DNA of 64,000 bases. Origin: Boswellia sacra (lineage: Eukaryota; Streptophyta; Magnoliopsida; Sapindales; Burseraceae). Location of the stretch: contig SNVD02009765.1 of assembly GCA_013180625.2 (NCBI GenBank), positions 327,517 through 391,516 on the forward strand, written 5' to 3'. The position numbers and the translations under genes were made by a program. The notes beneath the pieces were generated by a model, which was given only the letters and a program-made list of their open reading frames with translations, did no database searches and was not told where the DNA came from. Below are positions 11,628 through 64,000 of this stretch, one piece after another. How positions within the stretch are numbered: the first letter of the stretch is position 1; each line of letters begins with the position of its first letter.

Positions 11628-12006
11628 GTCGGCTGCAATTTTCAGAGCAATGAATAAGGGGCAATTAATAGCGACAGGAATGACAAAACAGAAGAATAAT
11701 ATATGGTTTTTCTGCAAACATGGACTCAATTGACAAATAACAGTTTCATGTCATAAGGAAAATTCAATCAACAATATTGGAAAGTGAAAACAAGTGAATG
11801 CTATTATAATGTCAGAGCAATAATATACTTACAATTAGCCAAGGACACAAATCCTTACATATAAACTGACTAAATACTATCATCTATTCTAATAATTTTC
11901 ATATTATTATTATGTCTATACCATACCAATTTGCATGGTTATTTTGTGAGCTGAATAGAAATCAAAAGATAGAGAAGCAATTGATTAGATTAAGGCTAAG
12001 ACTTAC

Positions 12007-42414: not shown

Positions 42415-43781
42415 TGATGAACACTTAAATATGTATGTTTAATAAGAGTTTAGTTCATCATATTGCATTAATAGTGTCATTAAATTCCTCAACTTAAGCA
42501 TATTTGTAGTTTTTGCATCTTTGGAATTAACTTCCTCTTAATTTTGGTTTTGTTATAGGTTTGATAAAATGGGCATAACTCTCTATTTATAGATCAGAAT
42601 GGTATAAATCTTAATGTTTTGGAAAGATAATTAAATTATCTACAAGATTGTATTTCATAAGCATCATCAAATTCGGGCTCTTAGTGAACGAAAAATGGGC
42701 TTGAAATGAACCCATCTGCAGATTCGGCCCAGCCTGACCATGCCTCAGTATTTTGATCATATCTCTTAGAATACGTATCCAAATTGTATAAATCAAGATG
42801 TTCTAGAAAGCTGAGAGAAATATCTACGAATTTGATGAAGATATGTGATTAAAATTCACAATAATTCAAGGTCAAAATTGGTGGTCAAAGTTGGTTCACC
42901 TAATTACCCCAATTGTCAAAGTTGGTGCATCTAATATTTGACAATTATTCCTTTGTAATTTGACAAGTTTGCCCCTGAATGTATCTATAAATAGAGGTGC
43001 CTTGTGACCCATTAGGGCATCTTGGCCTTTGCTGGGATCTTGTATTGTGTCTCTCTATTCTCTTTGTAATGTTATTAATGAATTTCCTTTTTCTTGCATT
43101 TTGTGTTCTTTCTCTTATAATGTCTTGCTAATTTCTCTCTTGCTAAGGTGAAAGGGTGAAACTCTTGATATGAGAGTAAGGATTCTCTAACCCTTAATAT
43201 GTGCTTAATAATGATAATCTTATGTTGTTTATATGATTTATATTTATTTTCTTAATCAATCTTGACACCATTCGTAAAGTGGAGGTCTTGATCCATTGTA
43301 GACAATCCTTGGCACATCAAATGCTTGGATCCTTTCTAGATGTCGTATGGTTCTTTCTTACTGACACGAATCTAGTTAGGAACCTTCATTTGTTGTAGAC
43401 ATATGGAGATTGGCATATTGGATGCTTGAACCTATTTACAAGAAGTGGTATAAATATTAGTAACGAAGCAAATATAATTCATATAACTAAAACGAGTTGT
43501 TTATCCTTATTTGAATTATCAAGGGCGGATCCCCTAACCTTAGCTTTCATTATTATTGTGTTAATTTCTCTTGTGTTATTCTCATTTATTATTTAAGAAC
43601 TTGTTCTTTACTCATACTTGTTGATAATATCTTGTCATCCCTTGTAATCATCCACATCATATTTGCTTGCTTATAGTTTGTAGCGCTAAAATCTCCTTCC
43701 TCGTGGATCGACCCCGGACTCACCGGATTTATTACTTCAACACTCCTATATTTGGGAGACAATCCTTTTTCGGATGTGTCA
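42415..43781 (+). repeat. 5' LTR of Athila-like element I (1367 bp)
   Basis: It runs from TGATGAACAC to GGATGTGTCA. It contains a TATA box at 42986-42993 and the shared end with GATCGACCCCGG found in all copies of this family in the window. Confidence 0.93.
42986..42993 (+). promoter_or_regulatory. TATA box of element I 5' LTR
   Basis: TATAAATA in GTATCTATAAATAGAGG. The same motif is in the element II LTR near 55856, but it is deleted from the 3' LTR of element I. Confidence 0.7.
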
Positions 43782-43787
43782 AGTTTT

Positions 43788-43805
43788 TGGCGCCGTTGCC
43801 GGGGA
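43788..43805 (+). other. Primer-binding site, tRNA-Asp type, perfect
   Basis: TGGCGCCGTTGCCGGGGA lies six bases after the LTR. It is complementary to the 3' end of plant tRNA-Asp, the usual primer of Athila-type elements. A TTTTC pentamer run follows near 43890-43917 in the leader. Confidence 0.85.
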
Positions 43806-44025
43806 GGGTAAAAATTGGCGTGCAAAATTGTAAGTATTCTCTTTTCTCATTTTAGATCTTAATTTTTTTTTCTCTTTGTTGTGTGTTCATCTTTTCTTTT
43901 CTTTTCTTTTCTTTTCTCTTTCTTGCATATTTTCATCTTTTCTTTCTTTTTGCATTAATTGGTAGAATTGTTAGGTGCCACTCGTCTTCTTTGAAAAACA
44001 TGCTCAAACCCAACCAAGAATATTA

Positions 44026-45813
44026 ATGGACTCCATAAATCTTAGAAAAACTTGTGCAAAATCATGCATAATCTTCCCTTGTGATGCAAAATATTTCGAC
44101 CATGAATCGGATTTCATTCAATTCTTACCCCACTTTCATGGCCTAGATGTTGAAAACTCATTTTTGCACTTGAGAGAATTTAAAGAGTTTTGTAATACCT
44201 ATAATGACCTAAATTGTAGCATAAACATCTTTAGATTAAAGCTTTTTCCTTTTTCTTTAAAAGATAAAGCTAAAACATGGCTACAAAATCTTAGGTCAGG
44301 ATCTATTAGCTCATGGGATGAAATGCAACAACAATTTCTTAAAAGATTCTTTCCTCCCTATAGAACAAATTCTCTCAAAGGGCAAATCATCAATTTCACT
44401 CAAAAACAAGGAGAGACCTTTTACCAATGTTGGGATAGGAATAAAGCATTGCTCAATACTTGTCCTCACCATGGTTTGGAAACATGGAGACTAGTTTTAA
44501 TTTTCTATGAAGGTCTTACACAACAAGCTAGGCATATGGTAGAATTAATGTGTAATGAGCAATTTGAAAACAAAGACCCTGATGAAGCCATGGATTTTCT
44601 AGATTTACTAGCGAAAAATGCCCAAAATTGGAACAATGTTGGCACCTATGAGGTGCCAAGAACATCTAGTAGAGGCATTTATAACTTTAGGGAGAATCAT
44701 GATTTTAATGCTAAATTTACATCCCTAGCTAGAAAAGTCGAGGACTTAAAAATGTGGTCTATGCAAGAACTTGTCTGTCACACTTGTAATTCTAGTGATC
44801 ATCCAACGGATGATTGCCCAATTATGCCTAACTTTAGGAAAAGTCTCCATGACCAAACTAATGTTTTAAACACTTTTCAAAGGTCAAATCCTAATCTTTA
44901 CTCACAAAAATTTGGATGGAAAAATCACTTGAATTTTGATTGGAGGAATGATAATCATGCACAATCTTACCAATCTCCCTTTCAATCATATCAAAATTTT
45001 CAAAAATCTCATGATCATGCATCTTATAAGGATCTTGGAGAAACATTAGATTCATTCATTGCAAAGCAAGAGGCTTTTAATAGTCAAGTTGCTCAAACTA
45101 TGGCAAACTTGAATGATGCTCTTGAAATACTCGCATTTGCACTTAAAACTCATGAGAAAGGTGAGTTTCCATCTCAACTAGAGCCAAACTCCATCAATCC
45201 ACATGTGAGTAATCCAAGGGGCCAACATCTAGACGAAGATTCGGTAAGTACTCTTCACGAAGGTAAGGTTGATAAAGAACATATTCCTAACCTTTATGAG
45301 AAAGATGATGAATCAATCTCAAAGGGTAAGGAAGAAGTTATTAAACCTACATCTAACAAGGAAAAGACCGAATCCTCACTTATGCCCTCATATCATCATG
45401 AACTTAACCAAAATGTTGGCATTGATGAATTTTTCAAGCATGATGAAAATGAGGAAGCTAATGTGGAAGACTATATCCAAAATGAGAATTTTTCAAGTCC
45501 TTCCGAAATCGAGTTAACTAGTTCACTTGAACCAAGTATGCAACAAGTGCCCATTGCTTCTGAAGAATTTTCATTGCTTGATTTTGTACAGGTGAAGGAG
45601 ATTAAGAGTTGGGAGCCATGTTTTGAAAAAAGGCAGGAAGAAACATCTGCACTAAAAAATGCATACCTCAAGGACAAACAAACTCAACTAGTGATAATCT
45701 TTTCCATTGTCACAAATAAAGGAAAAAGAGAGGTACCACCTCAATGTCATATTTTTGACCGTGGTAAATTACTTTCGAAGAGATTCCTCTTTTGGCTTTT
45801 TTATCACGATTGA
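44026..45813 (+). CDS. Athila-like Gag, open reading frame with fused protease-RT spacer remnant
   Basis: The frame is open from 43975, but the first codon there is GTG; the first ATG is 44026 (595 residues). Seen: retrotransposon gag core with LKLFPFSLKDKAKTWLQNLR and SWDEMQQQFLKRFFPPYRTN, and the zinc knuckle CHTCNSSDHPTDDC (C-x2-C-x4-H-x4-C). A low-complexity Asn/Phe-rich and acidic tail follows. The last part resembles the spacer before RT in element II, so a deletion removed the protease and fused gag to the spacer. Relative to element II, the true gag start (MADNQ-like) is also gone. Gag would form particles and package RNA. Confidence 0.85.
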   Translation: MDSINLRKTCAKSCIIFPCDAKYFDHESDFIQFLPHFHGLDVENSFLHLREFKEFCNTYNDLNCSINIFRLKLFPFSLKDKAKTWLQNLRSGSISSWDEMQQQFLKRFFPPYRTNSLKGQIINFTQKQGETFYQCWDRNKALLNTCPHHGLETWRLVLIFYEGLTQQARHMVELMCNEQFENKDPDEAMDFLDLLAKNAQNWNNVGTYEVPRTSSRGIYNFRENHDFNAKFTSLARKVEDLKMWSMQELVCHTCNSSDHPTDDCPIMPNFRKSLHDQTNVLNTFQRSNPNLYSQKFGWKNHLNFDWRNDNHAQSYQSPFQSYQNFQKSHDHASYKDLGETLDSFIAKQEAFNSQVAQTMANLNDALEILAFALKTHEKGEFPSQLEPNSINPHVSNPRGQHLDEDSVSTLHEGKVDKEHIPNLYEKDDESISKGKEEVIKPTSNKEKTESSLMPSYHHELNQNVGIDEFFKHDENEEANVEDYIQNENFSSPSEIELTSSLEPSMQQVPIASEEFSLLDFVQVKEIKSWEPCFEKRQEETSALKNAYLKDKQTQLVIIFSIVTNKGKREVPPQCHIFDRGKLLSKRFLFWLFYHD

Positions 45814-46423
45814 TCAAATTTCATCTGTTTGTGCCATATTTGCATTTTTTGTTATCATTTATAGTTTGTTTTAACTTTATTTTATGTAGTTGTGTGTTTG
45901 TATTTTATTTCTCGGTCAAGTGGCGGATACGGTACTCCGTGGCTTTTAAAGTCGATTTTTCAGTTCCCTAAAAACTGTTGCTCACGTTGCATTCATTTTC
46001 TTTTCTTTTCTCTCATTTTCTTCATAGTCTTGGGAGTCTGACTCAAAACGACCCTGTTTGCCAGTTTATAAGAAAACTGGATGGGAAGCATATCCCCAAC
46101 TCATAGAAGGTGTTTAAGTCGTTTTTGGACGTAAAACCAGAGGAAGATGTGAGCCACAGTCACAACTACCTGTACATATGCATGCGTGCCATCATTTTTG
46201 AATTTTAATGCCTTATAGCTATCATTTTTGAATTTGTATCTTTTGTTTAACTTATGGTGTCTTATTTCATCATCTTTTTTGAATTTTTATGCATAATTGT
46301 TGAATTTTTCAACAAGCAGCCGAGCTACCTATTTGGATGTCATTATTAGCATACCTTTTTACACTCCATAAATACGACATCTCTTGTTCTCTTCTTCACA
46401 CATAGTTAGAGAGTTGCATAAAC
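45814..46423 (+). other. Spacer between Gag and the LOG-like frame in element I
   Basis: Non-coding. It contains TCAAGTGGCGGATACGGTAC near 45916 and AACCAGAGGAAGATGTGAG near 46134, both also present before the LOG-like frame of element II. A TCCATAAATACGAC stretch at about 46367, some 50-60 bp before the ATG, is conserved between the two copies and could be a weak TATA element or captured leader. Confidence 0.6.
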
Positions 46424-47014
46424 ATGGAGGGAACTTCAAAACGTCGAATCCAAAAGATATGTGTATTCTGTGGATCTCGACTGGGTGAAAGTGAAGAGTT
46501 TGTCGAGGCAGCAAATTATCTTGGTAAACTACTGGCTGAAAGAAAGATTCATGTGGTTTATGGGGGAGGTAGCCTCGGGTTGATCGGTTGTGTGTCAAGA
46601 GCTGCACGTGTAGGAGGTAGTCAAGTTTTAGGAGTTATTCCTAAAGCTTTGGCTATAGAAAGCATTGTTGGAAAAACGGTTGGGCATGAGTTACAAGTCT
46701 CCTCTATGCATGAATGCATGGCACATATGCTCATCAATTCAGATGCCTTTATTGCTTTACCAGGTGGCTTTCGTACTTTTGAAAAAAATTTTCAAATTCC
46801 CTCTTGGGCCCAACTGAACCTCCATCGAAAACCCATAGGTTTGTTGAATGTTAACAATTTCTTTGATCCTTTAATAAGTTTTGTTGATGCAGCTGGTGAG
46901 TTACTTGACAAATTACAAGAAGTTAAGTATGAACCTGACCCAACTAGTACTCAAATTAATTGGGCAGGAGGGCAAAACAAAAAGTGCAAATTACATCTGA
47001 ATCTCCGTTTGTAA
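46424..47014 (+). CDS. LOG-like cytokinin riboside monophosphate phosphoribohydrolase, retrotransposon-borne, copy 1
   Basis: Intron-less frame of 196 residues from ATG. LOG enzymes release active cytokinin from its riboside monophosphate in the cytosol. Seen: KICVFCGSRLGESEEF (11-26), the Rossmann-like VVYGGGSLGLIG (44-55), VLGVIPKAL (68-76), SDAFIALPGG (106-115), WAQLNLHRKPIGLLNV (128-143). The signature PGGxGTxxE reads PGGFRTFEK (113-121): the glycine is Arg and the catalytic Glu is Lys, so activity is doubtful. About 22 residues before GELLDKL, present in copy 2, are deleted; the length is otherwise near normal. Host LOG genes have several introns, so this copy came through RNA. It lies in sense with gag inside element I. 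Confidence 0.88.
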   Translation: MEGTSKRRIQKICVFCGSRLGESEEFVEAANYLGKLLAERKIHVVYGGGSLGLIGCVSRAARVGGSQVLGVIPKALAIESIVGKTVGHELQVSSMHECMAHMLINSDAFIALPGGFRTFEKNFQIPSWAQLNLHRKPIGLLNVNNFFDPLISFVDAAGELLDKLQEVKYEPDPTSTQINWAGGQNKKCKLHLNLRL

Positions 47015-48328
47015 TGTTTTCTTGTACTTTATTTTATTTTATGAGTCTTTCGGGTCATCTCTCTTGAATAACAGAAGCTTCAGGTAATGTCCCCTATACT
47101 TTATCTCTCTACATTTAAACATTGAGGACAACGTTTCATTTGGTTGGGGGGGAAGGATAGTAGACATAAGTATGCTTTGAATTTTTTTTTCTTGAAAAAA
47201 AAAGCGAGTTAGTAATTATATTCAGAGTGCGGCGTAAGGAGTTCAAATCCTCTTGAGACGCATTCTGGGTCAGGAATGGCAGAGTAAGGAGGACCAATTT
47301 GAACTCTTGAAACCCATTCTAACCAATTTGTCATTTTATTTTGATTTTGTGAACTCATTTTAGCTAACTTGATATTATTTAGTCTTGATTTTTGAATTTT
47401 ATAACAAGGAAGTCTTATTCATTTCACTTTGAATTATTCAAATCTATGAACTCTCACAACCTTATCATTTAATAAATTGTATGCTTATGTACTCATTAAG
47501 CAAGTATTCATGAACCTTTCTTCACACACACACATATACCTTGATGCATGATTGTGGGTGACGAAATGAAATGTTGTAATATTTGAGTTCTTTTGTTTTG
47601 TTTAGGATAACAACACAAAGGAAGGGGAAAGTGTTTAAAAAAAAAAGAAAAAAGAAAAAAAGAAAAAAAAGTGAAAAAAAAGAGAGAAAGCAATTGTGGA
47701 TAAGTTTGGTCTCGTAGCCTCCTTAATTCGAGCAATTAAGCCCGAGGGGTGCCTCAACCCCTAATACCCTAAGACCAACTGGTTTGGGAGCTATTGGCCC
47801 AAAGCTCGCTACATTAATTAAGGAGAAAGCTTAATGGGATTGAACATTGCACTATCCACAAGTTTCTAAGAAAAAATAAAGCATCGGCAACCCGAGTCGT
47901 TAAGCTCGTAGGGGTGTCTTAACACCTAATGCCCTAAGGCCAACTGGTCTGGGAGTCATTAGCCTAAGGCTCGCTACGTGGGTTAAAGATGCATTTCTTC
48001 AAAAAAAAAAAGGAAAGAAAGAAAAAAATACATAAAATGAATAAATGTCCCCTACCTAAGGTTGTTAGCCTTAACAAATATTAGAACCGATATGGCTTCT
48101 GTCTAATAAGCCCCATAGTCATGTGTTGACTGAGCACAAAAAGGAGGTTTATTGATATCTTGACTGAAGAGTACATGAGTCATAAAAAAAAACGGTTGAG
48201 AGTTTGTTTATTTGGATAAAATCAAGGAGAGTGCAATAATGACCACCTTGGATGTAAAATTCTATAAATCACTTCTAAATAATAACGCTTTAATTGCTAG
48301 GGACTAGCAATAAGCTGGTTGGGGGGTG
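47015..48328 (+). other. 3' interior of element I: A-rich tract, 110-bp direct repeat, polypurine tract
   Basis: An adenine/guanine-rich stretch spans about 47636-47696. Two related blocks, about 47710-47825 and 47885-47990, share CCCTAAGACCAACTGGTTTGG-like and AAAGCTCGCTAC-like words. The purine tract TGGTTGGGGGGTG (48316-48328) abuts the 3' LTR. No coding frame was recognised. Confidence 0.75.
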
Positions 48329-49582
48329 TGATGAACACTTAAATATGTATGTTTAATAAGAGCTTAGTTCATCATATTGCATTAATAGTGTCATTAAATT
48401 CCTCAACTTAAGCATATTTGTAGTCTTTGCATCTTTGGAATTAACTTCCTCTTAATTTTGGTTTTGTTACAGGTTTGGTAAAATGAGTATAACTCTCTAT
48501 TTATAGATAAGAATGGTGTAAATCTTAATGTTTTGGAAAGATAATTAAATTATCTACAAGATTGTATTTCACGAGCATCATCAAATTCGGGTTCTTAGTG
48601 GACTAAAAATGGGCTTGAAGTGAACCCATTTGTAGATTCGGCCCAGCCTGACCATGCCTCAGTATTTTGACCATATCTCTTAGAATACGTATCTAAATTA
48701 TATAAATCAAGATGTTCTAGAAAGATGAGAGAAATATCTACGACTTTTATGAAGATATGTGATTAAAATTCACAATAATTCAAGGTCAAAATCGGTGGTG
48801 CCTTGTGACCCATTAGGACATCTTGGCCTTTACTGGGATCTTGTATTGTGTTTCTCTCTTGTGTTTTAATGTTATTAATCAATTTCCTTTTTCTTGCATT
48901 TTGTGTTCTTTCTCTTATAATGTCTTGCTAATTTCTCTCTTGCTAAGGTGAAAGGGTGAAACCTTGATATGAGAGTAAGGATTCTCTAACCCTTAATATA
49001 TGTGCTTAATAATCATAATCTTATGTTGTTTATATGATTTATATTTATTTTCTTAATCAATCTTGACACCACTCGTAAAGTGGAGGTCTTGATCCATTGT
49101 CGACAATCCTTGGCACATCAAATGCTTGGATCCTTTCTAGATGATGTATGGTTCTTCCTTACCGACACGAATCTAGTTAGGAACCTTGATTTGTTGTAGA
49201 CATATGGAGATTGGCACATTGGATGCTTGAACCCATTTACAAGAAGTGGTATAAATATTGGTAACGAAGCAAATATAATTCATATAACTAAAATGGGTTG
49301 TTTATCCTTATTTGAAATATGAAGGGCGGATCCCCTAACCTTAGCTTTCATTATTATTGTGTTAATTTCTCTTGTGTTATTCTCATTTATTATTTAAGAA
49401 CTTGTTCTTTACTCATACTTGTTGATAATATCTTGTCATCCCTTGTAATCATCCACATCATATTTGCTTGCTTATAGTTTGTAGTGCTAAAATCTTCTTC
49501 CTCATGGATCGACCCCGGACTCACTAGGTTTATTACTTTGACACTCCTATACCAGGGAGACAATCCTTTTTCGGATGCGTCA
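48329..49582 (+). repeat. 3' LTR of Athila-like element I (1254 bp, TATA deleted)
   Basis: It runs from TGATGAACAC to GGATGCGTCA. Relative to the 5' LTR it lacks 113 bp, including the TATA box. The break falls at GGTG, present at both ends of the missing block. Confidence 0.92.
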
Positions 49583-49612
49583 CATGGCTAAATGGGTTTA
49601 TTTTTGTACTTT

Positions 49613-51968
49613 TGTAGGTTATATAAAAATAACGTCTACATCCATTACAAATGATCAACCTGCTTCTTATGATGATATGCCAATGGACAAAAATGAAATG
49701 GAGCAAGATACTAAGGAGAACATGGTTGATGTTTTGGTTGAGGATGGTTCTACAAGAAATTCACATATGGGACGTGGGAAAATGCGACCTCTATATGGTC
49801 GTGGCATATGTGGGCATGGACCACGAGGTAGTATCACAAAGAGAAAGGAAGATCATCAACCAATAAAATGGTCTTGGGTCTGGGAACATTTTACAAAATA
49901 AACTGTTAAGGGTAGACATAAAGCTATTTGTAACCATTGCAAAGATGCATTGGTTGGTCATCATACAGATGGAACCAAACACTTGGCAAGCCATTTAGGA
50001 AGCTGTAAGAGTTAGAAACAAGAAAAAACAAGCAACAATTCTTAAGTTTTCAAAAGAAGCAAGATGAAAGTAATACATCGAAGATGGTCGTTGAAAAGTT
50101 TGACAAGGAAATTTGTAGGGAAAAGGTGGCTAAAATTATTGTAATGTATAAACCCCCTTTTTCTTTTGTTAAGTATGAGGGTTTTAGGGAGTTAATTTAT
50201 TATGCTCAACCTTTGTTTGTTCCCATGAGTAGAAACACATTAAAGAATGTGATTTTTAAGATATATGACATTGAAAAGGAATAGACCATGGAGATGATGG
50301 ATCCTTGTAAGAATAGAATAGGAATAACAACTGATATGTGGATTATAAGTAGTCAAAAGAAACGATACATGGTTATGACAACACATTTCATTTATGAGTA
50401 TTAGAGGTTACAAAGTCGCATCCTGAGGTAAATATATCATACATGAGACATAGTAATATTATACATTTTTTTTCAAAGAAGACTTAAATACTTAACTAGT
50501 GTTTGATTTTTACTTTTGAATATTTTTCAGGTTCATATATATTATATCTGCACAAACTGTTGAAGCACTTACTAATGAGCTAGCTCCTTTTTTGATGGAC
50601 TGGATGTTGATCGTAAGTTTTCATGTATTACTCTTGACAATTGTTCTACAATTGATGCATTGATTCCTATAATGAAAGAAAAATTGGGTGTTCATAACAT
50701 GATTTTCAAAGAAAAATTATTTCACATGAGGTGCACATCACACATTTTGAATTTGATAGTAAGAGATGGGTTAGATGTCCTTGGAGATGGGATTGATAAA
50801 ATTAGAAATAGTGTCACCTTTTAGTCTGCCATACCTAAAAGAATTGAGAGATTTGAGAGTGAAGTACGACAGATGAAAATTTCTTGTACAAGAAAATGAG
50901 CATTAGATTGTTACACTAGATAGAATTCAACTTAATTGATGTTGTCTACTGCATTAGAATATAAGATGTGTTTACTCGTTTGCATGTGCGTGAAAAAAGT
51001 TACAAATGTTTACCTACGCATTCAAACTGGGAGTTGCAAGGTTAATGTGTGAACATTTAAAGTATTTCTATAAGGTGACCCAAGTGTTTTCAGGTATGAG
51101 ATATCCTACTTTTTTTGCTTTGGTTTGTGACTTCAAATTGGCATTAACTAAATGGTGTGATTCTCCTCATTCTAAAATAAGGGAGGTGGCATAAAAAATG
51201 ATAGAAAAATTTGAAATATATTGGGAGTTCATTCACGGTGTTTTGGTAGTGGCTGTTGTATTGGATTCAAGTTATAAAATGCAATTGATTAAATTTTTCT
51301 TTCCAAAAATTCATGGAGACAATGGTTCAAAGCATGTTGGAGATGTGAAAGATATTTTTATGACTTAGAAAAGGAGTACAAACTAAAAGCTACCACTGTA
51401 GGTATAGGTGAACAAGATGAGTCGCTAGTGAGTGAGGTTCCTATGAGTGGTGGGTTGGCAGATATGACTTTTGAGTCCACTTTAGAGTATCAATCATACA
51501 TTCGTTGCACTCATAATATAGTTACTAAGTCTGAGTTAGATTTGTATTTGGAGAAGCAATGTTTGAAATATACTAGTGGCCGTTTTGATATTATCAGTTG
51601 GTGGAAGATAAATGTAGGCAAATATCCCTTGTTGGCTGAAACTTTAAAACATATTTTGTCTATTCCAATTTCTATAGTGGCTCCTGAGTTTGCGTTTGGT
51701 ACAAGTGGTAGACATTTAAGTCTCTATCATAGCAGACCACATTTAAAGACATTGGAAGTTTTGATGTGCACTCAAAATTGGTTATGGGCTTAGTCACGTG
51801 GTATGATATTCTCTTCAATGTTCAATTTTTATATTATGATCTATGTATATTTCTAACACCTTTTCTTTCCTTTTTTTTTCCGAGTGTGAATTGGTAATTG
51901 TAGAAGAAGTAATGTATGATAAGGATAAAGTGCCGTTAGGGCCATCGACATCGTCAACTTGTTCTTGA
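49613..51968 (+). pseudogene. hAT transposase (BED finger, RNase H-like, hATC), degraded
   Basis: The frame after a TTTTGTAG acceptor reads TSITNDQPASYDD, then a BED-type finger: WSWVWEHFTK, a stop, KAICNHCKDALVG and GTKHLASHLGSC. Downstream, EKFDKEICREKVAKIIVM and RIGITTDMWI match hAT transposases. The C-terminal dimerisation domain is well kept at 51428-51793: SELDLYLEKQCLKY, FDIISWWKINVGKYPLLAE, PISIVAPEFAFGTSGR, LICTQNWL-like end. Stops and shifts throughout mean no active protein. It would bind the element's termini and catalyse cut-and-paste movement. It lies inside the TIR- and TSD-bounded element. Confidence 0.88.
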
Positions 51969-52873
51969 ATTGATATGCTTAGGTTATACATGTTGGGTTG
52001 TACTTTTTGGATGTTTAGAGTTTACACTATATTTGCCTTTGTTGGGATGTGGTTTCTTTATCTTTGAAGCTTATGTTGGATGTAGTTTCTTTTATATTTG
52101 AATTATGTGTTGGATTGTGTTTTTATTTTTTCCTTTGTAGACTTGTAGAGTTGTAGCTTTTTTTTGGAATTGGTGTTTGAGCTCTGTGTTTATGTTAATT
52201 GTATTATGTGTTTATGTAATCAGTTATGTAGTGAATTGTATTATGTTTAGGTATTGAATTTTTATTTAAGGAATTGAATTATAGTTTGTAATGTAAAGTT
52301 GTTCTATTGTTTACTTGTTCTTGAATTTAAAATAATGAATTTCTAATTTTTTATACAAGATTTTGTAAATGATATCATTTATTTTATTAATTAATTTAGT
52401 AATTTGATAAAATATTATTGATAACTTAACTGGGAGAGAGTGGAATTCAATGCAAATTAAAAGAAAAATCAAATAACTATCAAAAGAGCAAGTTAAAAGA
52501 AAAAACAAATAATTGTCAAAAAAAAAGAAAAAAAATAGAAGATGAACCATACTAGGCAACTCGAACCTGGTTCCTAGGTAGCATAAAGATCCCAAGATCA
52601 AGACACCACTTGGCTAAGTTTATCAACTTGGAACAAATGGCAAAATAAATATAAGTAACAGTTTTGATATTACATTAAAAAAAATAAAAAAATATGGGGA
52701 ACAACCCTGAGAATTATAGTACCTGGCCTTGGTATCAAATTACCTGGCCTAGCCAAGACCCCAGCCCCAAAATTTTGGGGGAATTTTTCGGGGACGGGTA
52801 ATTAAAGGTCATGCTGGGGTCAAGGATTGAGATCCCTAGTCCAGCCTAGGTTTTTGATATCCATATATCCCCT

Positions 52874-53335
52874 ATCTAGGTTTAAAAATTGATTTTTTTT
52901 ATTAATAAAAATTTTCTATATAGTTAATGTTATCCTTATTAAATTCAGTCTGATGATCCCGAAAAAATTTATGGATCCGCTCCTAAACTAGATCACATAT
53001 GAACACATTAAAAACCAAATGCTAAAATATTTTTAAAAAAAATTATGACACAGATAACTTTCCAAAAATGGAGAAAAATAAAAAAAATTGTCATCCAATT
53101 CTCTCTATAATCCATGTGCTGCCACGGATCGTATTTTTTAACATCAAAATTTACAATAGTTGCATCTAAAATTTTCAATCCATAGTTTTCTCCAAATGAT
53201 CGTTATCAATAGATAAACGGAAAGGCTTCAACCAAAATTACAAATCCTAGGGCTGCAACGATTTTCATTTTACAGTGAGTTAACGACACCACATCTACTC
53301 TTACTAATGTCTCCAACATCCATCATGTTCGTTGC
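52874..53335. other. Spacer between the hAT element and Athila-like element II
   Basis: AT-rich, no feature recognised. Confidence 0.5.
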
Positions 53336-53710
53336 TGATAAACACTTAAATATGTATGCTTAATAAGAGCTTAATTCATCATATTGCATTAATAGTGTCA
53401 TTAAATTTCTCAATTTAAGCATTTTTGTAGTCTTTGCATCTTTGGAATTAACTTTCTCTTAATTTTGGTTTTGTTGTAAGTTCGGTAAAATGGGCATAAT
53501 TTTCTATTTATAGATCAAAATGGTGCAAATCTTTATTTTTTGGAAAGCTGATTAAATTATCTACAAGATTGTATTACAAGCATCAACAAATTCGGGCTCT
53601 TAATAGACCAAAAATGGGCTTGAAGTGAACCCATCTACAGTATCGGCCTAACCTGACTGTGCCTCAGTATTTTGACCATATCTCTGTTGACCCAGGTATG
53701 GCAACCCGAG

Positions 53711-53742
53711 AGAGGGGGGGGTGGGGGGGGGGTGGGGGGGGT
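53711..53742 (+). repeat. G-rich tract at the end of the solo LTR
   Basis: Runs of seven to ten G broken by single T bases, close to the LTR terminus. Confidence 0.85.
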
Positions 53743-54031
53743 GAATTGGGTTTTTATTTTTAAAAACGGATTTGTAAAACTTTTCTTGAAAGATCAAAAT
53801 TAGTTCACTATTTCTTTTGAGAATAAAGGTGAAGAAGATGAAAATAGAAGTTGCCTAAGATGCAATCAAGAGAATAGCAATAATAAACAATCACAAGTAC
53901 AAGTAAATAAAAATGATAGGGATAGAGAGAGTGCAAACTCAATTTGTGGTTTGGCAAACCTTGCCTACGTCCACGGGCTCCTAGCTCCACAAGCTAGGCT
54001 TTTCACCAAGTTGTAGAATTCTTTACAACTT

Positions 54032-54424
54032 GCTTGATGAACAACCTCACCAAGACTTTTTCCTGCTACCGTTGTTAATACCACACCAAGAGTTTTTCTT
54101 GATGAACAACCTTACCAAGGTAACTTTCTTCAACTCTTAATAATACCACACCAAGAGTTCTTCTTGATGAACAACCTCACCAAAGCAACTTCTTTCAACC
54201 CTTGATAACACCATACCAAGAGTTCTTCTTGATGAACAACCTCACCAAGGCAACTTTCTTTAACTCTTGATAACACCACACCAAGAGTTCTTTTTGATTA
54301 ACAACCTCACCAAGGCAACTTCCTTCAACTCTTGATAACACCACACCAAGAGTTTTTCTTGATGAACAACCTCACCAAGGCAACTTCTTTCAACTTTTGA
54401 TAACAACACACTAAGAGTACTCTC
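54032..54424. repeat. Tandem repeat, about 65-bp unit, six copies, in the solo LTR
   Basis: Units begin CTTGATGAACAACCTCACCAAG at about 54032, 54099, 54163, 54229, 54293 and 54359. Each contains CAACTCTTGATAACACCACA and CCAAGAGTT words. The period varies 64-67 bp. Confidence 0.85.
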
Positions 54425-56846
54425 AAGGATAACTTTTATCCTTTACAAGAAGATCTCTCTCTCACCATAATACAAGAATAAAGAAAAGTTTTACAACAAA
54501 AGTACAACTCTCTTTAAAGAGTAGATAAAGAATATAAAAGCTCTCTAGACTTGATATTTCTCTTGTTTTTTTTTGATAGATTCTTCTCTTCTTCTTGCTG
54601 AATGCATGGGAGAAGGGCTCCTTTTATAGGCAAATGGGATGAACTTAATCAAGTGAAGACACCAACTCCAAATTTTCTGCCCACCATAAAATCTGTAATC
54701 TTGTCTACCATTTTTGTCAATGTTCTATTTAAAATTTGAAAATCTGTAAAACATAAAAAATCTGCACAATTGAACAAGATTTCCAATGTATTAAGAACCA
54801 AGTCATTTAGATATCTGTAGCTCAAGATATGGCCAAAACACCATTCGGTACTCATGTGACTTGATTTTTCTTTCTTGTGTCAGTCCACCAACTTGCATGT
54901 GTATTATGTCGGCCTTCCATTTAAAATTTGAATTTCTTCAAAGAATTTGAAATGTGATCCATTGAATTATCTTTCTAATGCCACAAGAATCAAGTCATTT
55001 GAATATTTCTATCTCAAGATATGGATAAAACATCATTCGGTGCTCATATGAGTTAATTTTTCTTCTTTGTGTCAGTCCACCGAATTATATGTCAATTATG
55101 TCAACCTTTCATTTGAAATTTGAATTTCTTTAACACATATGAAATGTGCATCACTAAGTCCTCTTTCCAATTCCATAAAAATCAAGTCATTTTGATATTT
55201 CTAGCTCAAGATATGTCCAAAAGAGTATTCAGTGCTCATGTTAGTTGCTTCTATTTGTCTTTCAACTTGCATGATGATTTGGACAATCTTACACTTGAAA
55301 TTTGAATTTATTTAAAACATATAAAATGCTATAAATTAAGTAAGCTTTTCAAAGACTCAAGAATCACGTCATTTGGACATCTATAGAGATATATATGGCC
55401 AATTAATTGAACGTTGCTCATGTATTACATTCCTTGAGTCAATCCTTGTTCTTAAACTTTGGTGCCTTTAACATGTAGTCTTCTCCTTAGCTTCAACACT
55501 TCATTTTAATAAGCCTCCCCTTGATTTTACAAATATTTCATTGAATCTTATTTTTGCACATAAATAAACATATTAGTAATACCTTATGAATCAATGTGTA
55601 TTGTTATCATCAAAATTATCATGTAGCCTTAGGGCTAACAATCTCTTGATATAAGTATTCAAATCATATAAATCAAGATGTTCAAGAAAGCTGAGAGAAA
55701 TATCTACAAATTTTATGAAGAATTTGATCGAAATTCTAAGTAATTTGATACCGAAATTGGTGGTCAAAATCGGTGCACATGATGATCCCAATTGTCAGCA
55801 ATATATCTGACTTTTGTCCTTTTGTGATTTGACAAGTTTGCCCCTGAATGTATCTATAAATAGAGGTGCCTTGTGACCCATTAGGGCATCTTGGCCTTGG
55901 CTGGGATCTATTGTTATTATGTTTTTCACTCTTGTGTTTTAATGTTATTAATGAATTTTCTTTTTCTTACAATTTGTTTTCTTTCTTTGATAATGTCTTG
56001 CTAAATTCTCTCTTGCTAAGGTGAAAGGGTGAAACCCTTGATATGAGAATAAGGATTTTCTAACCCTTGACATGTGCTTTATAATCATAATCTTTTGTTA
56101 TTTATTTTATATGATTTATATTTATTTCCCTAATCAATCTTGACACCCCTCGTAAAGTGGAGGTCTTGATCCATTGTAGACAATCTTTAGCACATCAAAT
56201 GCTTGGATCCTTTCTAGATGTTGTATGGTTCTTCCTTACCGACACAAGTCTAGTTAGGGACCTTGATTTGTTGTAGACATATAGTGATTGACACATCGGA
56301 TGCTTGAACCCATTTACAAGAAGTGATATAAATATTGGTAATGAAACAAATATAATTCGTATAACTAAAATTGGGCTTAAATGACATACCTTTCGATTAG
56401 AACCTCCTTAATGTGTGGATTCCAATTGAGTTATAAATGATTTACTCATCCTTATTTGATATATCAAGGGCGGATCCCCTAACCTTAGCTTTCATTATAA
56501 TTGTGTTAATTCATTTTACTTGTGTATTTTAATTATTCTCACTTATTGTTTATGAACTTGTTATTTTATTTGCTGTGGTAGGTTTTACCCCCTATTTCCG
56601 TGGATGGTGCTACCACCTTTTAGTTTTGCTTTACCTTTGAATGGTTGGTAGTACCGCTTACCATCTTAACTTTTATTTATTGATGTTATCTTGTTATTCA
56701 TTTAAATCATTCATATCTTATTTGCTTATCTTATAGTTTGTATCGCTAAATCCCCTTCCTCGTGGATCGACCCCGGTCTCACCGGGTTTATTACTTCGAC
56801 ACTCCTATACTTAGGAGATAATCCTTTTTCGGATGTGTCAAGTTTT

Positions 56847-56864
56847 TGGCACTGTTGCCAGGCA
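56847..56864 (+). other. Degenerate primer-binding site of element II
   Basis: TGGCACTGTTGCCAGGCA, with four differences from the perfect tRNA-Asp site of element I. It probably primes poorly, in keeping with the element's decay. Confidence 0.75.
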
Positions 56865-57035
56865 AGGTAAAAATTAGCGTGCAAAATTGTAAGTATTCTC
56901 TTTTCTCATTTTAGATTTTAATTTTTCTTTATTGTGTGTTCATCTTTTCTTTTCTTTTCTCTTTCTTGCATGAAAATTTGGTCACAGGCATCTAGTGGTA
57001 GACTTGTTAGAAAAACATTATCTTCCTTAGAAAAC

Positions 57036-58485
57036 ATGGCCGATAATCAAGTGGAAAGGTTCACGGATGAAGGGGACAATCGTTCCCAATAAAATGATCA
57101 AAACCAACCAAGAACCTTTAGAGATTACATGAATCCGGTAAGGACCAGTGCACCATCTTGTGTAGTTTCTTCTCCCGATGCAATCCATTTTAATTTCAAA
57201 CCAAGTTTGGTTCAAGTTTGCCCACCTTTCATGGCCTTGATATGTAGAATTTATATTCGCACTTAAAAATCTTTGAAGAGGTATGTAACTCCTACAGTGA
57301 CCCAAATTGTAGCATAAACACCATTAGATTAAAGTTTTTTCCTTTTTCTTTAAAAGATAAAGCTAGAACATGGTTACAAAATTTGAGGTCAAGTTCCATC
57401 AGCTCATGGGATGAGATGAAATAACAATTTTTGAAAAAAGTTTTTCCTAACCATAGAACAAATTCTCTTAAAAGACAAATCTCAAATTTCACTAAAAACA
57501 AGAGGAAATCCTTTACCAATGTTGGGATAGGTATAAGGAATTACTTAATACCTATCGTTACCATGGTTTTGAAACTTGGAGAATAGTCGTACACTTCTAT
57601 GAAAGGTTAACACTTCAAGATAGGCAACTAGTGGAGCTAATGTGTAATGGAGTATTTGGAGATAAAGATTCTGATGAAGCAATTGACTATCTAGATTCCT
57701 TAGCAGACAAGGCCGAAAATTAGGATACTGCTGGCACTTGTGAGGCACCAAGCAAGGCCCCAACCTTGACATCTAATAGAGGTATTTACAACCTTAGGGA
57801 AGACCATGACCTTCAAGCCAAATATGCATCCCTAGCTAGAAAAGTCAAGGCTTTAGAAATGAAAAAGAGTGGCCAATTGAATTCTATTCAAGAACTTGTC
57901 TGTCACATTTGTAATGATAATGACCATTCTACTGATGAGTGCCCAACTTTGCCTGCCTTTAGGGAATGTCTTCATGAACAAGCAAATGCTTTGAACACTT
58001 TCAAAAGGCCAAATCATAATCCATACTCACAAACCTACAATCCTGGTTGGAGAAATCATCCAAATTTTAGTTGGAAAAATAACAATCATGCAAAATCTTC
58101 ACAAGTCCCTTTTCAAACACGACAAAATTTTCAAAATTCTAATGATCATGCATATGCTCCTCCTCCTAGGAATGACTCTAAAGAAATATTGCATTCATTT
58201 ATTATAAAGCAAGAGACTTTCAATAGTCAAATTGCTCAAACATTAGCAAATTTGTCAGGTACTCTTGCAAAATTTGCATCTACATTTAGCATCCAGGAAA
58301 AAGAGAAATTTCCTTCTCAAACATTGCAAAACCCCAAAGATCAATCTAACTCAAATGCAGGAAGTAAAAGTAACCAGTATTTGGACCAAGCCAAATTAGT
58401 CATGACCCTTCACAATGGTAAGGTTGTTGACAAATGCATTCCTAAACCTTATGAGAAAGAAGAAGAATCGATCTCTAAAGGTTAG
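57036..58485 (+). pseudogene. Athila-like Gag of element II, broken
   Basis: It starts at ATG 57036 (MADNQVERFTDEGDN), with a stop soon after. Then RTFRDYMNPVRTSAPSCVV and the gag core read across several stops and a shift. The frame is open again from about 57724, with the zinc knuckle CHICNDNDHSTDEC and PGWRNHPNFSWKNNNHAKS. A TAG at about 58483 ends it. Packaging function is lost. Compared with element I it keeps the original N terminus. Confidence 0.85.
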
Positions 58486-58535
58486 GAAGAGGTTACCAAG
58501 CAACATCTAGCGAAAAGAAAACTAAATCCTCATCT

Positions 58536-61500
58536 GTGCCTCCATTTCCTCAAGCATTAACCACACAAAAGAAACCAACTCACAATTCTAAAATATTTGA
58601 AATTTTCAAACAGGTAAAGGTCAACATTCCCTTGCTAGATGTGATTAAACAAGTACCTTCTTATGCAAAATTTTTGAAAGATTTACGCACTGTGAAAAGA
58701 AAATTGAATGTGAAAAAGAAGGCCTTTCTAGTCGAGCAAGTAAGTGCTATTCTTCAAAACAATAATACAGTGAAATATAAGGATATGGGTTGTCCTACAA
58801 TTTCATGTGTTATTGGAGACCATAAAATCAAACAAGCTTTACTTGATCTTGGTGCTAGTGTAAACTTACTTCCATACTCGATTTTTTAGAAACTCAATCT
58901 AAGTGAGTTAAAACCGAATTCTGTGACTCTTTTGCTTGCTGATAGATAAATTAAAGTGCCAAGAGGAGTAGTAGAAGATATGTTAGTTCAAGTTGATAAA
59001 TTCATTTATCCAGTCGATTTTATCGTCTTGGATACACAACCAGTGGAAGTATGTAATTCAATTACTATCATTTTAGGGCGTCCATTTCTAGCTACCTCTA
59101 ATGCTTCCATTAATTGCAGGAATAGAGTCATGAAGCTATCATTTAGAAACATGACATTAGAACCTAATGTTTTTAATAGTGCAAACAACCACATGAATAA
59201 GATGATGAAACTGAGGAGGCCAATGTGATTGAAACTATTGTGGAAGACCACATCACAAAAGAGAGTTCTTCTGACCCTTTGGAAACCTGTTTGGTCAATT
59301 CATTAGAATCAAGCATGGAACTAGAGCCTGATCTTTCTGATATATGTTCTTTATTAGATTGTGCACAGGTGATGGAAAAAAGCTCAAAACCAAGATTCGA
59401 AGAATTGGGGCAAATGAATAAAAGCAAGGAAGAGGAAGCTCCCATGTTAGAACTGAAGCCCTTACCTGAAGGACTAAAATACACATATCTTGGGGAGAAT
59501 CAAACATATCCGGTGGTAATTTCTTCATCCTTCACAAGTGAGCAACAAGGTAAGTTGATACACGTACTTAAAAGGCATCAAAATGCAATCAAATAGACTT
59601 TACAATACATAAAAGGCATTAACCCTTTGATTTGTACACATAGAATACATTCAAAAGATAATGCCAAAACATCCCAACAACCTCAAAGGAGATTAAATCC
59701 CCACATGAAAGAGGTCATTAGGGCTGAAGTTCTCAAACTACTTGATATGGGAATTATCTATCATATTTCTGATAGTGAGTGGGTGAGCCTTACACAAGTA
59801 GTACCTAAGAAATCTGGCATTACAGAAGTCAAAAGTGAAAAGGGTGAATCGTTGCCAACTCGAGTCTCATCTAGTTGGAGGATGTGCATTGATTATAGAA
59901 AATTAAATATTGTCAATAGAAAAGACCATTTTTCCTTACCATTCATTGACCAAATTCTAGAAAGAGTAGCAGGGCACCCCTGCTAGTGCTTTCTCGATTG
60001 ATACTCAGGCTATTATCAAATTCCTATTGCACTTGAAGACCAAGAAAAGACCACATTCACGTGCCCCTTCGACACTTTTGCATTTAGGAGAATGCCTTTT
60101 GGACTTTATAATGCCTCAGCCACTTTTCAAAGACGCATGTTAAGCATTTTCAGTGATATGGTTGAGCATTGTTTAGAAGTTTTCATGGATGATTTAACTG
60201 TCTTTGAAAATTGTTTTGAGAATTATCTTGAAAACTTAGAAAAAGTCCTAAAAAGGTGTGTAGAAAAAGGTCTTATTTTGAATTGGGAAAAATGTTATTA
60301 TATGGTCACTTCGCGAATTGTCTTAGGTCATGTGGTGTCTTCTAAGAGAATTGAAGTGGACAAAGCAAAAGTGGAATCAATTTCCCATTTACCTCCACCA
60401 AAAACAATTAAAGAGGTCCGTTCATTCTTAGGGCATGCTGGATTTTATAGGAGCTTCACAAGAAATTTCAGTGCTATATCTAAACCTTTTTGTAACCTTT
60501 TAATAAAAGACACTTCTTTTGAATGGACTTAAGAATGTCAAAATGCCTTTGATAAGTTAATTAGACTTTTAACAACTGCTCCAATTATGCAATCTCCCAA
60601 TTGGTCCTTGCCTTTTGAATTGATATGCGATGCAAGTGACTATGCTGTTAGTGCTGTCTTAGGACAGAGAAAAGAAGGTAAGCCTTATATGATATACTAT
60701 GCAAGTAGGACTTTAAATGATGCACAAATGAATTACAGAACAACTGAAAAAGAACTACTTGCAGTAGTATTTGCATTGGACAAATTTTGATCTCATTTAA
60801 TTGATTCTCCAACGATTGTTTACACTGACCATGCAGCTGTGATATATTTAATGTCTAAACAGGATGCAAAACCTAGCTTGATATGGTAGATCTTATTGCT
60901 CCAAGAATTTAACATCACAATAAAGGATAAGAAAGGAGCCGAAAATGTCGTTGCAGATCATCTTTTAACACTAACGACAGAGACGTTAATTGAAACGTCA
61001 CCTATCAATGACTCTTTTCCTGATGAATTTTTATTCTCCGTTGCTGTTGTACCTTGGTTTGCTAACATTGTAAATTTCCTTGCAACAGGAGAAATGCCAC
61101 CTCATTGGAATGCTCAAGACAAAAGGAAGTTTTTAACCGAGGTGAAAAATTTTTATTCGGATGACCCATATCTGTTCAAATATTGTCCGGACCAAATAAT
61201 TAGAAGATGCATACCCGACAATGAGGTAAGTAGTGTCATTAATTTTTGTCATTCCAAAGCATGTGGAGGACATTTTTCATTTAAAAAAACAGCTGCTAAA
61301 ATCTTACAATGTGGATTTTATTGGCCCACCTTATTTAAAGATGCACATGCATTTTGCAAACCTTGTGAAAATTTTCAAAAATTGGGATCCATTTTAAAAC
61401 GAAACATGATGCCTTTGAATCTCATTTTTGTTATTGAAATCTTTGACTATTGGGGTATTGATTGTATGGGACCTTTTCCACCTTCATTTGGTTTTGTATA

Positions 61501-62338
61501 CATTCTTGTTGCAGTAGACTATGTTTCAAAATGGGTCGAGGCAATTCCATGTTGAAACAATGATCACAAAATAGTTATCAAATTGTTGAAAGAGAATACC
61601 TTGTGTAGATTTAGAATTCCCCGAGCCATTATTAGTGATGGGGGTGAATATTTTTGTAACAAACTATTTGAAACTCTAATGAAGAAATATGGAATAAACC
61701 ATAAAGTTTCTACACCTTATCACCCACAAACAAGTGGACAAGTTGAATTAGCTAACAGGGAGATAAAACAGATCTTAGAAAAAATGGTAAACCCAAACCG
61801 TAAAGATTGGTCTTTAAGACTTAATAATGCACTTTGGGCTTACCAAACTGCTTTCAAAACATCATTGGGAATGTCTCCTTATAAATTAGTTTATGGAAAA
61901 CCTTGTCACTTGCCTGTGAAAATTGAGCATAAAGCTTATTGGGCCATTAAAACATTTAATACAAATTTGGATGATGCTTGCAAGTTACGTAAACTCCAAC
62001 TGAGTGAACTTGAAGAAATCAAGAATGAGGCTTATGAAAATTCTTAAATCTACAAAGAAAAAATGAAGGTTTTTCATGACAAATTCATTGTTAGAAAATC
62101 TTTTAAACCTTCACAAAAAGTTCTTTTGTATGATTCAAGATTGCATTTGTTTTCCGGTAAACTTCGGTCTCGTTGGACTGGGTCTTTCATTGTTAAAAAT
62201 GTTTTCCCTCATGGAGCAATTGAAATTGAGAACCCAAAGAATGGTAATATTTTTAAAGTTAATGGACAACGGTTAAAACTATTCTTGAAAAATTTTGATC
62301 AAAATGAAGAGTCCATTGCTTTAATCGATCCTTTTTAA
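58536..62338 (+). pseudogene. Athila-like Pol of element II (protease, RT, RNase H, integrase), broken
   Basis: Protease: LLDLGASVNLLPYS (about 58840-58881) and IILGRPFLATSNA. A frameshift near 59200 leads to RT: MCIDYRKLN, YQIPIALEDQEKTTFTCPF, MPFGLYNASATFQR, catalytic FMDD (about 60182) and RSFLGHAGFYRSF. RNase H: FELICDASDYAVSAVLGQ and YYASRTLNDAQMNYRTTEKE. Integrase: H-H-C-C finger (HSKACGGH, CKPC), then [24 protein letters not shown] and [12 protein letters not shown] with the DDE residues. Stops at about 58887, 59594, 59983, 60530, 60788, 60887, 61552 and 62045 prevent a polyprotein. The motif wording is that of the Athila lineage. Confidence 0.92.
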
Positions 62339-62460
62339 TGATTGATTTTTCCTAGTCAAGTGGCAGATACAGTACTCCGTGACTTTTAAAGTTGGTTTTT
62401 TAGTTTCCTAAAAACTATTCCTCACTTTGCATACATTTTCTTCTCTCTCATTGTCTTCAC

Positions 62461-62877
62461 ATGGATAGCATTCTCTCGAATCTGTACAAACATTTTCCCT
62501 CTCTTCCTCAAAATGATTCGCTTAAAATTTACAAAGCTCGCGCAGAAAGACTAAGGATGTTGATGTGCAAGGGTATTCTTGCTGATTTAAGATGGTTAAT
62601 TGAAGCCAAAGTTTGATTTTCTTGTGAGTTTTCAAATAATCTTGTTTCCTACATGCCAGGTTTGGGAAAAAGCTCTTACGCCAAAAAGCGAAGAGCGAAA
62701 ATGTTACAAGTTTGTCACAAATGTGCAAGATGGACTTGTAACCAGCGTTGCCACTCCTTGGAATAATTGTCTAACAATCGAGAGGATAAGCTAGAGTTCA
62801 TCAAGAATGGCTTGAATAGGGAGTCTTTGGATGATATCCGATTGACTCTTGAGATGTATTCGACTTATGCAGCGTGA
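62461..62877 (+). other. Extra segment of element II with short basic Cys/His frame, absent from element I
   Basis: This block interrupts the alignment of the two elements between pol/gag and the LOG-like frame. An ATG at 62461 opens MDSILSNLYKHFPSLPQNDS (51 codons). A second ATG at 62653 opens a 74-codon reading with one internal TAA: MPGLGKSSYAKKRRAKM, then CHKCARWTCNQRCH, and after the stop a helical LEFIKNGLNRESLDDIRL. The basic Lys/Arg run next to closely spaced Cys/His resembles a nucleic-acid-binding peptide. I do not recognise a family. Confidence 0.5.
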
Positions 62878-63341
62878 AAATTTTAAATTATGGACACAAT
62901 TCTAAGATGAGCAGGAACGTTATAGTCTTGGGAATCTGACTCAAAACGATCCTATTTACCAATTTATAAGAAAACTAGATGGGAAACATATCTCTAACTT
63001 ATAGAAGGTGTTTAAGCTATTTCTGGACATAAAACCAGAGGAAGATGTGAGCTACAGTCACAACTACCTGTACATATGTATGTTGTGCCATCATTTTTGA
63101 ATTTTAATGCCTTACAGCTATCATTTTTGAATTTATATCTTTTGTTTAACTTATGCATTTATGGCATCTCATTTCTGTCATTGTTTTTTTTTTTTAATTC
63201 CTATGCATTACTGTCAAATTTTTTTCAACAAACAACTGAGCTACCTATATAGATATCATCATTAGAATACCTTTTTACACTCCATAAATATGACTTCTCT
63301 TGTTCTTCTCTTCACACATATAGTTAGAGAGTTGCATACAC
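62878..63341 (+). other. Conserved leader of the LOG-like frame in element II
   Basis: It aligns with about 46021-46423 of element I, including AACCAGAGGAAGATGTGAG, TTGAATTTTAATGCCTTA and TTACACTCCATAAATATGAC just before the ATG. No frame is seen. Confidence 0.7.
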
Positions 63342-63896
63342 ATGGAGGGAATCTCAAAACGTCGAATCCAAAAGATATGTGTATTCTATGGATCTCAACC
63401 TGGAAAAAGTAAAGAGTTTGTAGCAGTAGCAAATTATCTTGGTAGGCTATTAGCTAAAAGAAAGATTCATGTGGTTTATGGGGGAGGTAGCCTTGGGTTA
63501 ATGGGTTGTGTGTCAACAACTGCACTTGTAGGAGGTAGTCAAGTTTTAGGTATTATTCCTAAAGCTTTGGCTGTAGAAAGCATCGCTGGAAAAACAGTTA
63601 GGAAGGAGTTACAGGTCTCCTCTATGCATGAACGCATGTCATATATGCTTATTAATTCAGATGCCTTTATTGCTTTACCAGGTCGCTTTGGTACTCTTGA
63701 AGGAATTTTTCAAATTGCCTCTTGGGCCCAATTGAATCTCCATAAAAAACCCTTAAGTTTGTTAAATGTTAAAAATTTCTTTGATCCTCTAATAAGTTTT
63801 GTTGATGTAGTTGTAGAACAGAATTTTATCCCTAATTTGGTGCGACAGATTCTTGTTTCTGCCACTTCTGCTCGTGAGTTACTTGACAAATTATAA
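63342..63896 (+). CDS. LOG-like phosphoribohydrolase, retrotransposon-borne, copy 2
   Basis: Intron-less frame of 184 residues from ATG, closely similar to copy 1 at 46424. Seen: KICVFYGSQPGKSKEF, VVYGGGSLGLMG (44-55), VLGIIPKALAVESIAGKTV, MHERMSYMLINSDAFIALPG, then PGRFGTLEG (113-121), where the second Gly is Arg and the catalytic Glu is Gly. The helix and strand FIPNLVRQILVSATSARELL, lost from copy 1, is kept. A TAA replaces a Gln codon (CAA in copy 1) after LLDKL, and homology ends at 63914 where an inverted LTR begins. It is probably inactive as an enzyme. Role as for copy 1: cytokinin activation in the parent family. Confidence 0.85.
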   Translation: MEGISKRRIQKICVFYGSQPGKSKEFVAVANYLGRLLAKRKIHVVYGGGSLGLMGCVSTTALVGGSQVLGIIPKALAVESIAGKTVRKELQVSSMHERMSYMLINSDAFIALPGRFGTLEGIFQIASWAQLNLHKKPLSLLNVKNFFDPLISFVDVVVEQNFIPNLVRQILVSATSARELLDKL

Positions 63897-63914: not shown

Positions 63915-64000
63915 TGACACATCCGAAAAAGGATTGCCTCCCAAGTATAGGAGTGTCGAAGTAATAAAACCCGGTGAGACCGGGGTTGATCCACGAGGAA
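63915..64000 (-). repeat. Inverted Athila-family LTR end (element III, runs off window)
   Basis: TGACACATCCGAAAAAGGAT is the reverse complement of the end of the element I and II LTRs, and the match continues to the window edge (CCGGTGAGACCGGGG, GATCCACGAGG). No primer site lies on its outer side, so this is the outer edge of a 3' LTR; the element extends to the right in minus orientation. Confidence 0.88.

Follow-up and report, generated by a model that had tools for sequence, protein, structure and literature searches.

The stretch of DNA analysed here (64,000 nucleotides of Boswellia sacra, contig SNVD02009765.1, positions 327,517 to 391,516, called the window below) is plant DNA with NBS-LRR genes and retroelements. 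We found that two loci in this window, about 17 kb apart and alike in their internal DNA, are likely decayed members of an old Athila-type lineage of Ty3/gypsy long terminal repeat (LTR) retrotransposons, in which some relatives carry behind pol a gene for a carlavirus-type cysteine-rich nucleic-acid-binding protein (CRP), followed by an intron-less LOG gene, a cargo that would act on the host cell. LOG releases active cytokinin. It is conservation that points to a lineage with CRP and LOG as cargo; the function of this cargo is putative.

The original prediction, made from the letters of the window, had claimed two Athila-like elements with an intron-less LOG-like frame in each at an equal position and orientation, as well as two LTRs and a target-site duplication for one of them (element I), and all of this was confirmed. 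Element I covers 42415-49582 and has the following features (basis of the assignment in brackets):

42410..42414, no strand: target-site duplication CATGG, left (sequence)
42415..43781, + strand: 5' LTR, TG...CA (LTR comparison)
43788..43805, + strand: primer-binding site TGGCGCCGTTGCCGGGGA (sequence)
43975..45813, + strand: gag open reading frame (ORF), 612 amino acids, PF03732 (ORF and Pfam)
46024..46179, + strand: 3'-end remnant of the CRP ORF, with TAG in frame at 46104-46106 and then the conserved extension KVFKSFLDVKPEEDVSHSHNYLY (to 46175)
46424..47014, + strand: LOG copy I, 196 amino acids, PF03641 (ORF and Pfam)
47119..47170, + strand: conserved 3' motif ACATTGAGGACAA and G-rich tract (also found at position 2575 of L006, a relative described below)
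48329..49582, + strand: 3' LTR, 113 bases shorter than the 5' LTR (LTR comparison)
49583..49587, no strand: target-site duplication CATGG, right (sequence)

The LTRs of element I are about 95% identical, in two blocks; gag is intact, LOG is present and pol is absent. The primer-binding site we take to be of the tRNA-Asp type. The target-site duplication has the five bases looked for in the Athila lineage, a length found for 93.4% of plant LTR elements in the consulted parts of PMC6317226.

Element II, which is more broken, shows the gene order pol-CRP-LOG:

53336..53685, + strand: 5' LTR, first part (LTR comparison)
53686..55640, no strand: repeat-rich DNA of about 2 kb inside the 5' LTR, with tandem repeats of 65 bases (six copies) and 192 bases (three copies)
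55641..56840, + strand: 5' LTR, second part (LTR comparison)
57088..58563, + strand: gag region, broken, 72% identical to element I (nucleotide comparison)
58620..62335, + strand: pol, broken (Pfam; protease part and outer limits judged by reading)
60092-60532, + strand: RVT_1 within pol (Pfam)
60533-60787, + strand: RT_RNaseH within pol (Pfam)
60896-61555, + strand: integrase zinc domain within pol (Pfam)
61583-62047, + strand: rve within pol (24.0 bits, under the cut-off of 32.6)
62461..62613, + strand: CRP remnant piece A, 51 amino acids (by reading like the start of P0206/P0209; alone without Pfam match)
62617..62763, + strand: CRP remnant piece B, 49 amino acids, PF01623 Carla_C4 (30 bits, cut-off 20.9)
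62922..63082, + strand: 3' end of the CRP remnant, with TAG at 63002-63004 and then the conserved extension (to 63073)
63342..63896, + strand: LOG copy II, 184 amino acids, PF03641 (ORF and Pfam)
63915..64000, - strand: inverted LTR end of the same family, which interrupts element II and runs beyond the window

The inverted LTR end starts 18 bases past the stop of LOG copy II and cuts the element, so that the own 3' end of element II lies outside the window; it is the start of another element or a solo LTR that continues past the window edge. The pieces of element II follow the reverse transcriptase-RNase H-integrase order of Ty3/gypsy, even with rve below its cut-off. A second RNase H (aRH), the mark of Tat, Ogre and Retand in the consulted parts of PMC6317226, was not found in 60533-60787, in 60896-61555 or in L006 194-1591, the copy being broken, L006 partial and 60788-60895 outside the scan. 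Likewise, the Athila ORF-1 domain PF03078 was not reported in the pieces scanned by Pfam; it is present in 16% of Athila elements and hence not required (PMC6317226, same parts).

The similarity of the two loci and their distance of about 17 kb could also reflect local duplication of a single insertion within the window, which had been named beforehand as a finding that would overturn the prediction. Such a segmental duplication is not indicated, since the outer left flanks (about 2 kb per element; the comparison covers the left sides, the right flank of element II lying beyond the window) gave no mutual match at E<=1e-3. Moreover, divergence is unequal, with gag just 72% identical, and element I has its own target-site duplication whereas element II has its own start and its own insertion. 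We rejected this explanation, which we find hardly credible. Over 892 bases that comprise the leader and most of LOG, the elements are 86% identical, compared with 72% for gag, so different parts of the elements may have different histories.

Both LOG-like ORFs turned out to be real, with clear matches to PF03641 (Lysine_decarbox; 86 bits for copy I and 112 bits for copy II, cut-off 27). Aligned with its relatives, copy I carries the active-site changes R98C, G117R and E121K (R, G and E in the family) and, relative to copy II, a 60-base in-frame deletion; copy II carries G115R and E121G. Copy I retains the tail KKCKLHLNLRL, whereas copy II is without tail, its stop falling where copy I reads on. 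Neither copy has both R98 and an intact PGGxGTxxE motif, which we take to be catalytic in LOG phosphoribohydrolase. Because active-site residues are lost in both, we call neither a working LOG and both look dead. Between the copies we calculated dN 0.103 and dS 0.222 (NG86, a ratio of about 0.46) or dN 0.099 and dS 0.238 (YN00), and a ratio of about 0.4-0.5 is as expected for constraint in the past followed by decay, by itself being no proof of function.

The relatives of these copies are better preserved. Of 1387 candidates in a search with copy II, 1251 proteins passed E<=0.001, and the counts that follow refer to the best 120 of the 1251, from for instance Reevesia, Diplodiscus (10 rows), Populus, Parasponia, Xanthoceras and Paulownia. 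Reevesia contributes 21 rows bearing 11 different chromosome-like name labels, indicating dispersed, multi-copy genes. All seven active-site positions checked were intact in 92 of the 120, and in all of 46 host-type LOGs (chosen by an FKRIC-like start and thus not a random sample). An LxLxL end was found in 84 of the 120 versus none of the 46, and in 82 of these 84 at least three K or R stand immediately upstream (e.g. KKRKLDLTLRL). LxLxL presumably resembles the plant EAR repression motif. The tail is not universal: it is missing from all 22 Acer and Xanthoceras rows, the intact ones of which still have the basic stretch. The canonical Arabidopsis LOGs At2g37210 and At5g11950 (PDB 2a33 and 1ydh) belong to the same family (copy II, E 2e-50 and 4.2e-47, respectively); compared with such canonical plant enzymes the LOGs of the retrotransposons (retro-LOGs) form a separate group, most of those listed having the extra end. 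An alignment of LOG gave five loci in IMG/VR viral contigs, at just 26-31% identity, and these were not used further.

The separation was most clear in a tree of 52 hand-picked rows, calculated without outgroup, in which 36 retro-LOGs (including the LOG parts of Citrus, Orobanche and Acer CRP-LOG gene models) were separated from 16 host LOGs; support for this split was 100/100, and it recurred in 200 of 200 bootstrap trees. Populus, Parasponia and Citrus occur on both sides of the split. On the basis of this tree we rejected the idea that the LOG transcript of the host itself was captured recently. The branches of two Orobanche rows are very long (2.21 and 0.95). Rosids and asterids are both represented in the retro group, on one side of the branch, and the cargo therefore looks old; one old capture or plant-to-plant transfer would either of them explain this span. 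The split together with the dispersed multi-copy relatives supports the predicted lineage-level LOG cargo, and makes the capture look far older than the two insertions in the window. Going by the absence of introns, what joined the element was probably a spliced LOG transcript, at a time long preceding the two insertions. Elements of different plant families might instead have captured related LOG genes of their hosts independently, several times over, and the plant-specific subgroups in the trees (Populus, Reevesia, Paulownia) would be in line with this. However, the branch places all 36 retro rows together, apart from the 16 sampled host LOGs, and the LxLxL tail is common to most of the listed relatives and the CRP neighbour to several genera, which makes this scenario quite improbable. 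Two Populus proteins, P0035 and P0064, bear the database name of a host cytokinin enzyme (LOGL10) and were placed in the retro-LOG group by this tree and by the 85-row tree described below; they are probably transposon genes.

The second cargo gene is apparent from the Acer gene model P0141, in which LOG is fused to an upstream part that matches, by reading, the pre-LOG remnant of element II and a portion of the leader that the two elements have in common. The homologous leader of the original prediction is indeed shared, but part of it is the tail of another extra ORF, that of CRP, with LOG after it. A search with residues 1-145 of P0141, restricted to proteins of about 184-584 amino acids, yielded 65 proteins, 54 of which have the precomputed label PF01623 (carlavirus nucleic-acid-binding protein). 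LOG domains were present in 17 of the 65 (12 together with PF01623) and reverse transcriptase, RNase H, integrase or protease domains in six (three together with PF01623); gene models that join CRP with LOG or pol domains were found in Acer, Citrus, Rhamnella, Populus, Orobanche and Diplodiscus. Among 27 proteins of CRP length, Viral_NABP (PF05515) and Carla_C4 (PF01623) were each found in 19 (E<=1e-3). In our own Pfam scans, which were weaker than the precomputed labels, piece B of element II matched PF01623 (30 versus 20.9 bits) and the L006 ORF matched PF05515 (34.1 versus 23 bits), identifying them as carlavirus-type CRPs; P0251 and P0231 passed both families, P0235 and P0249 passed PF01623 in a second scan, and P0206 and P0241 were sub-threshold only. 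The cysteine-rich proteins of carlaviruses, allexiviruses and mandariviruses share with the retrotransposon CRP the Pfam families PF01623 and PF05515 as well as a basic stretch followed by a cysteine-rich motif (PMC12172455, consulted parts). Unlike the viral proteins, the retrotransposon CRP has integrase on one side and LOG or the 3' end on the other, and its function is putative. An alignment of CRP identified no locus in the IMG/VR viral contigs.

Of 37 CRP proteins with the motif QFxRKLDG, 23 end at one and the same position. In the remaining 14 this position is taken by Y (5), Q (5), W, L, K or R, and 11 of them (four Y, five Q, W and L) continue with a shared extension; the K, R and one Y row seem to be models that are broken or misaligned. 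A TAG stands at that position in both window copies (46104-46106 and 63002-63004) and in L006 (2345-2347), followed by the same extension, with the peptide xAFKxLLDVKPEEDVSHNHNY. Readthrough of the CRP UAG is possible, and since the DNA at the TAG is itself conserved, a conserved DNA or RNA signal, for instance a splice site, is equally possible.

The relative L006 was the one locus found when a bacterial genome collection was searched with the CRP alignment. It comprises 3330 bases filed in a Candidatus Nomurabacteria metagenome-assembled genome, and as it has a plant-type Ty3/gypsy integrase and CRP, it is most likely plant contamination in that reference genome. An integrase ORF at 194-1594 (rve 60.4 bits, above the cut-off of 32.6) is followed by an intact CRP ORF (1787-2347) and then by the conserved 3' motif, with no LOG between. 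L006 2265-2420 is 86% identical to element I 46024-46179, and the CRP extension and the 3' motif are separated by about 160 bases in L006 versus about 945 in element I. A LOG-less state thus exists, ancestral or lost.

LOG and CRP could have been picked up once as passengers of no use and be intact in many copies only through co-copying with the element, and the loss of catalytic residues in both window copies, a dN/dS between them that is not very low, and L006 with integrase and CRP but without LOG are in line with this. Unused cargo should decay, however, whereas active-site residues and length were retained over rosid and asterid rows on long branches, and we consider a mere passenger unlikely.

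Several observations weigh against a lineage with a cargo that acts on the host cell. As a result of the active-site losses, nothing within the window is likely to work, and the relatives are protein sequences without DNA context, with the exception of L006, which is without LOG. A quick tree of 85 rows with a bacterial LOG outgroup gave the same split with an approximate likelihood ratio support (SH-aLRT) of only 92 (the unlabelled metagenome row P0144 grouped with the host LOGs there and was relabelled for the 52-row tree), and the sampling of host LOGs was narrow (LOG7-, LOG1-, LOG3- and LOG8-like), the 52-row tree having no outgroup. In some of the joined gene models, adjacent ORFs may have been linked by an artefact of annotation. 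Only three of ten CRP-type or fusion proteins (two of the ten being window pieces) passed a CRP-family cut-off in our first Pfam scan; piece A, P0216, P0234, P0236 and P0255 gave no CRP-family match at E<=0.001 in it, nor did P0248, P0250, P0261 and P0268 in the second scan. The fold model of CRP was poor (predicted local distance difference test score 64, predicted template modelling score 0.36), and a BFVD fold search with it gave no match at E<=0.001 among 15. The silencing suppressor of Fig latent virus 1 ranked second in that search with E 2.1, and was not used as evidence.

Conservation and family membership suggest a cargo that was of use to the element. Silencing or transcription would be the target of CRP, by analogy with viral CRPs, which are reported to be silencing suppressors and one of which, p12 of chrysanthemum virus B, is reported to be a transcription factor causing hyperplasia (PMC12172455, consulted parts). 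LOG would increase local cytokinin and cell division, and more dividing or germ-line cells would mean more cells to transpose in. We also put forward, tentatively and as a possibility we regard as doubtful, a eudicot-wide lineage with a two-gene host-manipulation module, in which readthrough would extend CRP, a zinc-finger protein of RNA-virus type in this reading, past the conserved UAG and the basic LxLxL tail would lead LOG to the nucleus and to co-repressors, the module countering silencing and driving division so that the element would be copied in growing tissue.

Elsewhere in the window, three long NBS-LRR ORFs without interruption, all of them with NB-ARC and LRR domains, are located at 3738-6707 (+), 7611-11729 (-) and 18588-21695 (+), and a fragment of a Ty1/copia-type reverse transcriptase (RVT_2) at 86-1147. 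The DNA immediately right of element I (49600-50180) reads like the BED-type zinc finger of a DNA transposon.

The abstract of Steinbauerova et al. 2011 reportedly names two Athila-like elements similar to LOGL4. A YgdH (LOG) domain was described in Gypsy elements of Citrus sinensis and C. clementina and, without filter, of Populus trichocarpa (PMC9289625, consulted parts), likewise as a LOG-type frame within plant Ty3/gypsy LTR elements, so the headline of our finding is not new. The consulted parts of that paper (its supplements being outside the comparison) do not mention the CRP neighbour, the LxLxL tail, a common eudicot origin or asterid LOG members. The orchid Gypsy elements with an AlkB N6-methyladenosine demethylase described there are a similar case of an extra enzyme ORF kept by one lineage; the enzyme is different and its activity was shown in vitro, whereas the activity of retro-LOG is putative (PMC9289625, same parts). 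A literature search on carlavirus-type CRP in retrotransposons found no paper on such cargo, judged by titles and abstract starts, and one on captured LOG genes likewise added none. New here are the CRP partner before LOG, the grouping of rosid and asterid retro-LOGs, the conservation of active site and LxLxL, and a CRP-bearing contig without LOG. Overall, the original interpretation is supported in part, namely for LOG as lineage cargo; it had not foreseen a CRP tail in the leader with LOG after it, LOG copies that look dead, or the earlier description in print.

Taken together, CRP and LOG look like a pair of cargo genes of long standing, and not like the result of a single accident. Some 'cytokinin enzymes' in the databases, such as the two Populus LOGL10 proteins, may be transposon genes, and so may many hypothetical proteins, such as the 21 Reevesia rows. 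The elements offer a direct test of why LTR elements retain extra ORFs. If the module works, a plant transposon would have recruited a hormone enzyme as well as a pathogenicity protein of RNA-virus type, tying transposon fitness to host cell division.

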